Part shown: one piece after another, positions 35,197-36,858 of the stretch
Numbering within the stretch: the first letter of the stretch is position 1
Layout of the letters: every line of letters begins with the position of its first letter
NCBI GenBank assembly: GCA_021648495.1
Contig: JAKIST010000002.1
Coordinates: forward strand, 1-37,026
DNA: 37,026 bases
Origin: Draconibacterium sp.
GTDB taxonomy: Bacteria > Bacteroidota > Bacteroidia > Bacteroidales > Prolixibacteraceae
Direction: 5' to 3'
The notes under the pieces: generated by a model
Databases searched by the model: none
What the model saw: only the letters and a program-made list of their open reading frames with translations
Told to the model about the DNA's origin: nothing
Position numbers and translations under genes: made by a program

Positions 35197-35228
35197 TTTG
35201 ATTTATCGCTGTTCTTTCTTTAAGTTTG
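35197..35228 (+). promoter_or_regulatory. candidate Bacteroidota promoter for the cysK leader transcript
   Basis: TTTG (35197-35200), 20-nt spacer, TAAGTTTG (35221-35228), 18 nt before the leader ATG. Confidence 0.55.
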
Positions 35229-35246
35229 TTTAGAATTATTGAAAAT

Positions 35247-35324
35247 ATGAAAAATACAAAAGAAAATACATGCATGTGTTGTTGCTTCCCTGAAAACAGG
35301 GAAGGTATTTTTTATATTATTTAA
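35247..35324 (+). CDS. cysteine-rich leader peptide
   Basis: MKNTKENTCMCCCFPENREGIFYII*; Cys codons at 35271-35273 and 35277-35285; upstream of cysK. Confidence 0.75.
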   Translation: MKNTKENTCMCCCFPENREGIFYII

Positions 35325-35386
35325 CTGAATAAAAATTCAATTATTTATAAATAAAAGCCTTCCTAAGAAATTAGAGAGGCTTTTTT
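35285..35386 (+). promoter_or_regulatory. predicted transcription attenuator of cysK
   Basis: 1:2 hairpin CTTCCCTG-AAAA-CAGGGAAG (35285-35304); GGAAGG (35300-35305) complementary to CCTTCC (35358-35363) in the terminator arm; terminator 35353-35386. Confidence 0.75.
35353..35386 (+). terminator. intrinsic terminator between leader ORF and cysK
   Basis: AAAAGCCT tcct aagaaatt agag AGGCTTTT plus T tract; located 30 nt before the cysK ATG. Confidence 0.75.
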
Positions 35387-35416
35387 ATTTTAACCGATTT
35401 TAAAAACAAAATTATT

Positions 35417-36328
35417 ATGAAGGCAAACAACATTTTGGAAACCATTGGCAATACGCCACATGTACGTATGAACCGTTTGTATCCGGGCGATTACGAAGTT
35501 TGGGTAAAAGTTGAAAAAACAAATCCGGGAGGAAGTATCAAAGACCGGATTGCTCTGGAGATGGTGACAGATGCCGAGGCGAAAGGATTATTGAAAAAGG
35601 GCTCGGTAATTATTGAACCAACATCAGGCAACACAGGAATTGGCCTGGCTCTCGTGGCAGCAGTAAAAGGTTACCGCTTAATATTAACCATGCCGGAATC
35701 GATGTCGGTAGAACGTCGTAAAGTTTTATTGGCATTAGGGGCCGAACTTGAACTTACCCCAAAAGAAAAAGGCATGAAAGGTTCAATTTCAAAAGCAGAA
35801 GAGTTAGCGGCGGAAATTCCAAACTCATGGATTCCTTCGCAATTTACAAACCCGGCAAATATTGATGCCCATCGTAAATATACTGCACAAGAAATTATCA
35901 ACGATTTTCCGGAAGGGTTGGATTACCTGATTACGGGTGTAGGTACCGGAGGTCATATTTCAGGGGTTGGAGAAGTGCTTAAACAAAAATTTCCTGACTT
36001 AAAAGTTTTTGCTGTTGAACCAGAAGCAAGTGCAGTTATTGGTGGAGGAGCTCCCGGGCCACATCCAATCCAGGGTATTGGTGCGGGTTGGATTCCTGCA
36101 AATTTGAATACAGAAATTTTGGATGGTACAATCTCGGTAAGTAAAGAGGAAGCTTTTGAATATACGCAGAAAGCAGCCAAATTGGAAGGTTTGTTTGTTG
36201 GCATTTCTTCCGGTGCATCGTTGGCAGCGGTAGCTAAAAAAATTAAAGAGCTGCCAAAAGGGTCGCGCATCTTAACTTTTTCTTACGACCACGGCGAACG
36301 TTATTTATCAGTTGAAGGGTTGTTTTAA
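35417..36328 (+). CDS. cysK: cysteine synthase (O-acetylserine sulfhydrylase)
   Basis: [14 protein letters not shown]...[20 protein letters not shown] (PLP lysine), [65 protein letters not shown]. Confidence 0.96.
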
Positions 36329-36534: not shown

Positions 36535-36858
36535 ATGAAAAAGTTATTTTTCCTGACAATTGTTTTGGTATTGGTTTCCTGTAATTAAGGAACAAAAAAG
36601 ACAAATACTAAAAAGAAGGAAACTGAGCCTGTTGAGATTGTTGAAGCCACTATTAACATTGGCGGAATGACTTGCGAGATGAGTGTCGCTTCAATAGAGA
36701 AAGGTGTTAATGAATTGGAAGGAATTAAATCGCTTGCAGTTAGTTTAAACGATTCAACCGCAATTGTAAAATCCGATGTGGCAAAAATGGATTTGACCAG
36801 GATTGAAAAAGTAATCGAAAAACGGGGATATTCAATTAAAAGGGACGGTTCAAATTGA
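36535..36858 (+). pseudogene. heavy-metal-associated (HMA) domain lipoprotein gene interrupted by an in-frame stop
   Basis: MKKLFFLTIVLVLVSCN*GTKKTNTKKKETEPVEIVEATINIGGMTCEMSVASIEKGVNELEGIKSLAVSLNDSTAIVKSDVAKMDLTRIEKVIEKRGYSIKRDGSN*; TAA at 36586-36588, same frame on both sides. Confidence 0.8.

Follow-up and report, generated by a model that had tools for sequence, protein, structure and literature searches.

In the Rhodobacterales, the uORFC-8-2 motif upstream of cysS consists of an upstream ORF with tandem Cys codons and a U-tract terminator, and ribosome-mediated attenuation was proposed for it (PMC8632094). Actinobacterial cysteine leaders are located upstream of cysteine operons; no conserved terminator hairpin accompanies them and an involvement of Rho was suggested (PMC1262725). 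The polycysteine leaderless sORFs of mycobacteria are, by the title of their report, cysteine-responsive attenuators (Canestrari 2020, cited in PMC13236596). Within the Bacteroidota, clues to leader-peptide attenuation upstream of amino-acid biosynthesis operons were described for Flavobacterium psychrophilum (PMC9723704), and sORFs reminiscent of attenuators were described for B. thetaiotaomicron (PMC7366714). In the searched text of these last two papers, no case of a cysteine leader-peptide attenuator in Bacteroidota could be identified.

Here, the region upstream of cysK in Draconibacterium sp. is described; the window is the whole stretch of 37,026 nt of contig JAKIST010000002.1 that was analyzed. 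The element in the window shares the Cys-codon uORF and the terminator with uORFC-8-2, but the latter is alphaproteobacterial, precedes a cysteinyl-tRNA synthetase gene and contains two Cys codons. As in the actinobacterial leaders, runs of Cys codons are found late in a small ORF before cysteine genes; the terminator hairpin, absent there as a conserved feature, is conserved here. The leaders of F. psychrophilum belong to the same phylum and likewise precede amino-acid operons, but the main text of that paper names no cysteine gene. Attenuation of this type is classic and, as far as could be searched, was not previously described for cysteine synthesis in Bacteroidota. The tentative view of the original prediction that no Cys attenuator of this kind is known from this phylum fits the literature searched, although the more general clues from F. 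psychrophilum precede it.

Organization of the cysK leader region

All features discussed here are located on the forward strand. A promoter candidate of the Bacteroidota type, TTTG-N20-TAAGTTTG, spans positions 35197-35228, with TTTG at 35197-35200 and TAAGTTTG at 35221-35228, separated by 20 nt. It is followed by a leader ORF of 25 codons, MKNTKENTCMCCCFPENREGIFYII, at 35247-35324 including the stop codon (ATG 35247-35249, TAA 35322-35324). The putative regulatory codons Cys-Met-Cys-Cys-Cys (CMCCC) occupy 35271-35285, the four Cys codons being located at 35271-35273, 35277-35279, 35280-35282 and 35283-35285. On inspection of the sequence, no Shine-Dalgarno site was apparent 5' of the leader in the window; such sites are rare in Bacteroidota. 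In several relatives a TAnnTTG-like box was observed about 8-12 nt 5' of the leader ATG.

Arm 1 (CTTCCCTG, 35285-35292) is separated by AAAA from CAGGGAAG (35297-35304), with which it forms a perfect 8-bp protector hairpin, 1:2, that is present in the MFE. Arm 2 (CAGGGAAGGT, 35297-35306), supported by a partner-swap test of arm2:arm3, has the core GGAAGG (35300-35305), which is complementary to CCTTCC (35358-35363) in arm 3. Arm 3 (AAAAGCCTTCCTAA, 35353-35366), supported by covariation of 2:3 and 3:4, is also the 5' arm of an intrinsic terminator, in which it is followed by the loop GAAA and by arm 4 with the T tract (35371-35386; TTAGAGAGGCTTTT at 35371-35384, T tract at 35381-35386). This terminator hairpin (35353-35386) has a free energy of -13.1 kcal/mol in the window and lies between the leader and the structural gene. 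The putative controlled gene is cysK (35417-36328), encoding cysteine synthase A of 303 aa, which scored 400.9 bits against NCBIfam TIGR01139 cysK (cut-off 350.95). All parts named in the original prediction, from the promoter-like sequence over leader, Cys codons, 8-bp hairpin, GGAAGG:CCTTCC complementarity and terminator to cysK, could be located where it had placed them. The fold of 35247-35416, which it had suggested as a check, was far better than that of shuffled sequences (dG -39.1 versus -21.7 ± 3.6; z -4.8; 0/200).

Downstream of cysK, at 36538-36858, a frame with a lipoprotein-like start (MKKLFFLTIVLVLVSCN) is broken by a stop codon, and the remainder after this stop resembles, by eye, a heavy-metal-associated domain. 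This frame is possibly a pseudogene or an assembly error.

Conservation of the leader among family cysK loci

Orthologs of cysK from the family Prolixibacteraceae were sampled, and the 89 loci with sufficient upstream sequence were counted. In 77 of the 89 loci, cysK is preceded by a small Cys-run ORF and then by a terminator, so that the check on orthologous upstream regions suggested in the original prediction came out in its favor; codons for the end product are thus clustered in an ORF before cysK both in the window, as CMCCC, and in these relatives. Cys leader and terminator were observed in 15 of 16 genera and in 31 of 32 loci of the genus to which the window belongs. The 12 family members in which the leader is absent include all 5 genomes of one genus. 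Typical family leaders are MKNTGNNMMMCCCFLKNGKGVVVF, MKANFSYMYMCCCYKQSGEGMFSTNI and MNFTYLNMICCCCLLKRRQI. In 68 leaders, Cys was found at the start of the run and usually also at the next two positions, encoded by TGT (166 codons) and TGC (84 codons). That Cys is kept while TGT and TGC interchange speaks for translation of the leader.

At three loci (L052, L056, L063) the leader was lost and the terminator hairpin was kept directly after the upstream gene, before cysK. The gap between terminator and cysK, usually 25-60 nt, was about 130-145 nt at six loci (L008, L010, L013, L024, L036, L038).

Pairing and spacing of the RNA arms

The native duplexes of arm 2 and arm 3 had a mean energy of -15.1 kcal/mol, compared to -12.4 ± 0.25 with swapped partners (0/5000) and -7.8 kcal/mol when arm 2 was shuffled. 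With one sequence per genus the native mean was -15.3 versus -12.4 ± 0.59 for swapped partners, with a median of 0 in the swap test. Covariation was computed on an alignment of 46 sequences and amounted to 0.242 for the antiterminator 2:3 (0.195 ± 0.012 shuffled), in which 7 pairs were changed on both sides, and to 0.374 for the terminator 3:4 (0.237 ± 0.011 shuffled), in which 93% of cells were paired. When the 2:3 helix was slid by one column, covariation was 0.244 versus 0.242 and pairing 68% versus 71%, which in part reflects register shifts. Since relatedness inflates the shuffle tests and the one-column slide scores similarly, the swap test at genus level carries more weight. Mutually suited changes of the two arms were seen in L047 (TGCAGAAAGG with CCTTTCTGCA), L033 (ATTCAGGGAGG with CCTTCCTGAAT) and L041 (ATCCCGAGAAGG with CTTTCCGGGAT). 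Swap tests and covariation together identify an antiterminator pairing that excludes the terminator.

The protector hairpin 1:2, a perfect 8-bp helix in the window and also a feature of some relatives, has no single conserved form across the family. Of the compensatory changes in arms 1-4 that the original prediction had suggested as a check, those in 2:3 and 3:4 were found; arm 1 is not conserved. The proposed logic of 1:2, 2:3 and 3:4 pairings is therefore retained for the two covarying helices, together with a canonical distance between stall site and arm 2, and is modified for 1:2, whose form is not constant.

Across the family leaders, a median of 14 nt separates the last Cys codon from arm 2, and arm 2 ends a median of 12 nt before the leader stop codon, so that a terminating ribosome would overlap arm 2. 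The terminator starts a median of 28.5 nt after the leader stop, and both its hairpin and its T tract are conserved. It had been proposed that a ribosome finishing the leader would allow 1:2 and the terminator to form; the 1:2 hairpin is not constant, and the commoner feature is the end of arm 2 shortly before the stop codon.

Folding in the presence of a ribosome mask

For 73 sequences, the RNA left free by a ribosome was folded as far as the 3' end of arm 3, before synthesis of arm 4. When the last Cys codon was occupied by the ribosome, the antiterminator was probable in 70 of the 73 sequences; with the ribosome at the stop codon, it was probable in none (0/73). If no ribosome is placed on the window's leader, the antiterminator probability is held at 0.0007 by the 1:2 hairpin. 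When the full-length RNA was folded at equilibrium, the terminator was favored in 71/73 even with a stalled ribosome, and the switch must therefore be kinetic and decided during transcription.

The E. coli leaders thrL, leuL and trpL gave an identical signature, including the terminator winning at equilibrium; hisL of E. coli does not fit this simple mask calculation. With trpL, leuL and thrL the element in the window shares a small ORF in which codons for the pathway product are clustered, and a mutually exclusive antiterminator and intrinsic terminator; in trpL and leuL, arm 2 begins 14 nt downstream of the last regulatory codon, the same distance as the family median. It differs from the three in that Cys instead of Trp, Leu or Thr codons are used, cysK is the gene putatively controlled, the promoter candidate is of the Bacteroidota type and the protector hairpin is not uniformly conserved. 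A spacing by which a stalled ribosome would free arm 2 and one at the stop codon would block it is thus seen in the family medians, in the mask folding and in the E. coli control. The element has every defining feature of a classical attenuator that can be tested in sequence, except for a constant protector hairpin.

Related leaders in the genome and in the phylum

A covariance model of the element was searched across the 3.0-Mb genome and gave only two matches with E < 1e-10, both before cysK operons. The second element (C56:4236-4384; contig C56, L093) has the leader MKKTFSINNMMNMCCCMLFRHVEGVVISV and precedes an operon (L093 / L129:1349-4384) with OsmC, a second cysK (cysK2) and ATC hydrolase, which acts in a route that yields cysteine. 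This operon on contig C56 also contains two further small genes, which are similar to each other.

Matches to the model below about 40 bits were left out, since many of them extend over no more than its terminator half. Within the same order, Cys leaders were identified before cysE or cysE-cysK (L101-L104, L111, L114, L123, L125, L221, L234, L235, L242) and before cysK (L109). In the rest of the phylum, Cys leaders are located upstream of cysK (L284), cysH (L287), a uroporphyrinogen-III methyltransferase/siroheme gene (L278), a mercaptopyruvate-sulfurtransferase-like gene (L297) and metN (L290, L298), and mixed Cys/Met leaders precede O-acetylhomoserine sulfhydrylase (L282, L299). The distribution is patchy: when 30 cysE loci of other families were inspected, only about 6 had a Cys leader. 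In 80 named records from other orders and phyla, no credible leader with a Cys run was identified at cysK, and only three weak Cys-containing ORFs were seen, indicating that cysK is not generally accompanied by the element. Cys-run leaders were also observed before genes with no obvious role in cysteine metabolism, namely a peroxiredoxin (L288), a porin-like (L294) and a carbonic-anhydrase-like gene (L281).

The same covariance model identified leaders with other codon runs before genes of the matching pathway: Trp (L107, L108, L110, L116, L119, L120, L305), Asn (L113, L115, L122, L127, L283), Thr (L279, L292, L293, L296), branched-chain amino acids (L106, L112, L124) and Met (L118). The agreement of codon run and pathway suggests that leader-peptide attenuators form a set spanning the phylum.

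Discussion

The occurrence in 77 of 89 loci, the conservation of Cys, the covariation, the advantage of native over swapped pairs and the spacing make it very unlikely that the element arose before cysK by chance. From these comparative features, the mask folding and the linkage to cysteine and sulfur genes we infer, with a probability of about 0.88, that cysK is under ribosome-mediated transcription attenuation in response to charged tRNA-Cys, which would involve translation of the leader, stalling, termination and a response to cysteine. Transcription would begin just 5' of the 25-codon leader. When Cys-tRNA is ample, the ribosome would clear CMCCC, reach the stop codon and sit on or near arm 2, which in the window could also be held by arm 1. 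With arm 2 blocked, arm 3 would be free, the 3:4 terminator would form and transcription would stop near 35386. Under a shortage of Cys-tRNA, the ribosome would stall on the Cys codons and cover arm 1, and arm 2, about 13 nt downstream of these codons, could pair with the emerging arm 3 before arm 4 exists. Once 2:3 had formed, RNA polymerase would proceed into cysK, which is thus probably read only when the cell is short of cysteine.

The same RNA switch could be driven by the nascent Cys-rich peptide as the sensor, if the CCC motif, on emerging from the ribosome, takes up a metal or reacts with an oxidant or electrophile, and if stalling follows from this signal instead of a lack of Cys-tRNA. 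The leaders are indeed rich in Cys with CMC and CCC motifs, and one precedes a peroxiredoxin (L288) and one OsmC (L093). However, the Cys run lies about 14 nt 5' of arm 2, as stalling at codons requires, genes of cysteine or sulfur metabolism lie downstream of most Cys leaders identified, and leaders built in the same way carry Trp codons in front of trp genes, Asn codons in front of asnA and Thr codons in front of aspartokinase genes, so that the codon run tracks the amino acid produced. Sensing by the peptide is therefore considered improbable. Slightly less probable still is that the leader is translated and regulation is Rho-dependent or translational, with the hairpin acting only as a partial constitutive terminator. 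Such a role would resemble the actinobacterial Cys leaders, which lack conserved terminators and for which a Rho mechanism was proposed (PMC1262725), but a strong hairpin and T tract are conserved about 28 nt past the leader stop and arm 2 covaries with the 5' arm of the terminator.

The structured and conserved 5' region could also be read as an RNA element binding a ligand or protein, with the ORF being incidental. No match to any described Rfam family (T-box, riboswitch or known leaders) was obtained at gathering thresholds, and at a relaxed E-value there were only weak, unrelated hits, none of them credible. The Cys codons, moreover, are exchanged for synonyms without loss of Cys, and arm 1 lacks the conservation expected of an aptamer, which makes such an element the least probable of these explanations, with very little chance of being correct.

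Attenuation by a ribosome sensing charged tRNA-Cys would provide a concrete and testable mechanism for cysteine control in Bacteroidota, for which none was found in the literature searched. The Cys, Trp, Asn, Thr, branched-chain and Met leaders of the same build suggest that amino-acid pathways in this phylum are generally controlled by leader-peptide attenuation. More tentatively, and at somewhat below even odds, a large part of cysteine and sulfur metabolism in Bacteroidota (cysK, cysE, cysH, siroheme synthesis, O-acetylhomoserine sulfhydrylase, metN, sulfurtransferases and an OsmC-cysK-ATC hydrolase operon) may be governed by Cys- or Cys/Met-codon attenuators of one architecture, which would replace a dedicated transcription factor and belong to a phylum-wide set of attenuators for several amino acids.
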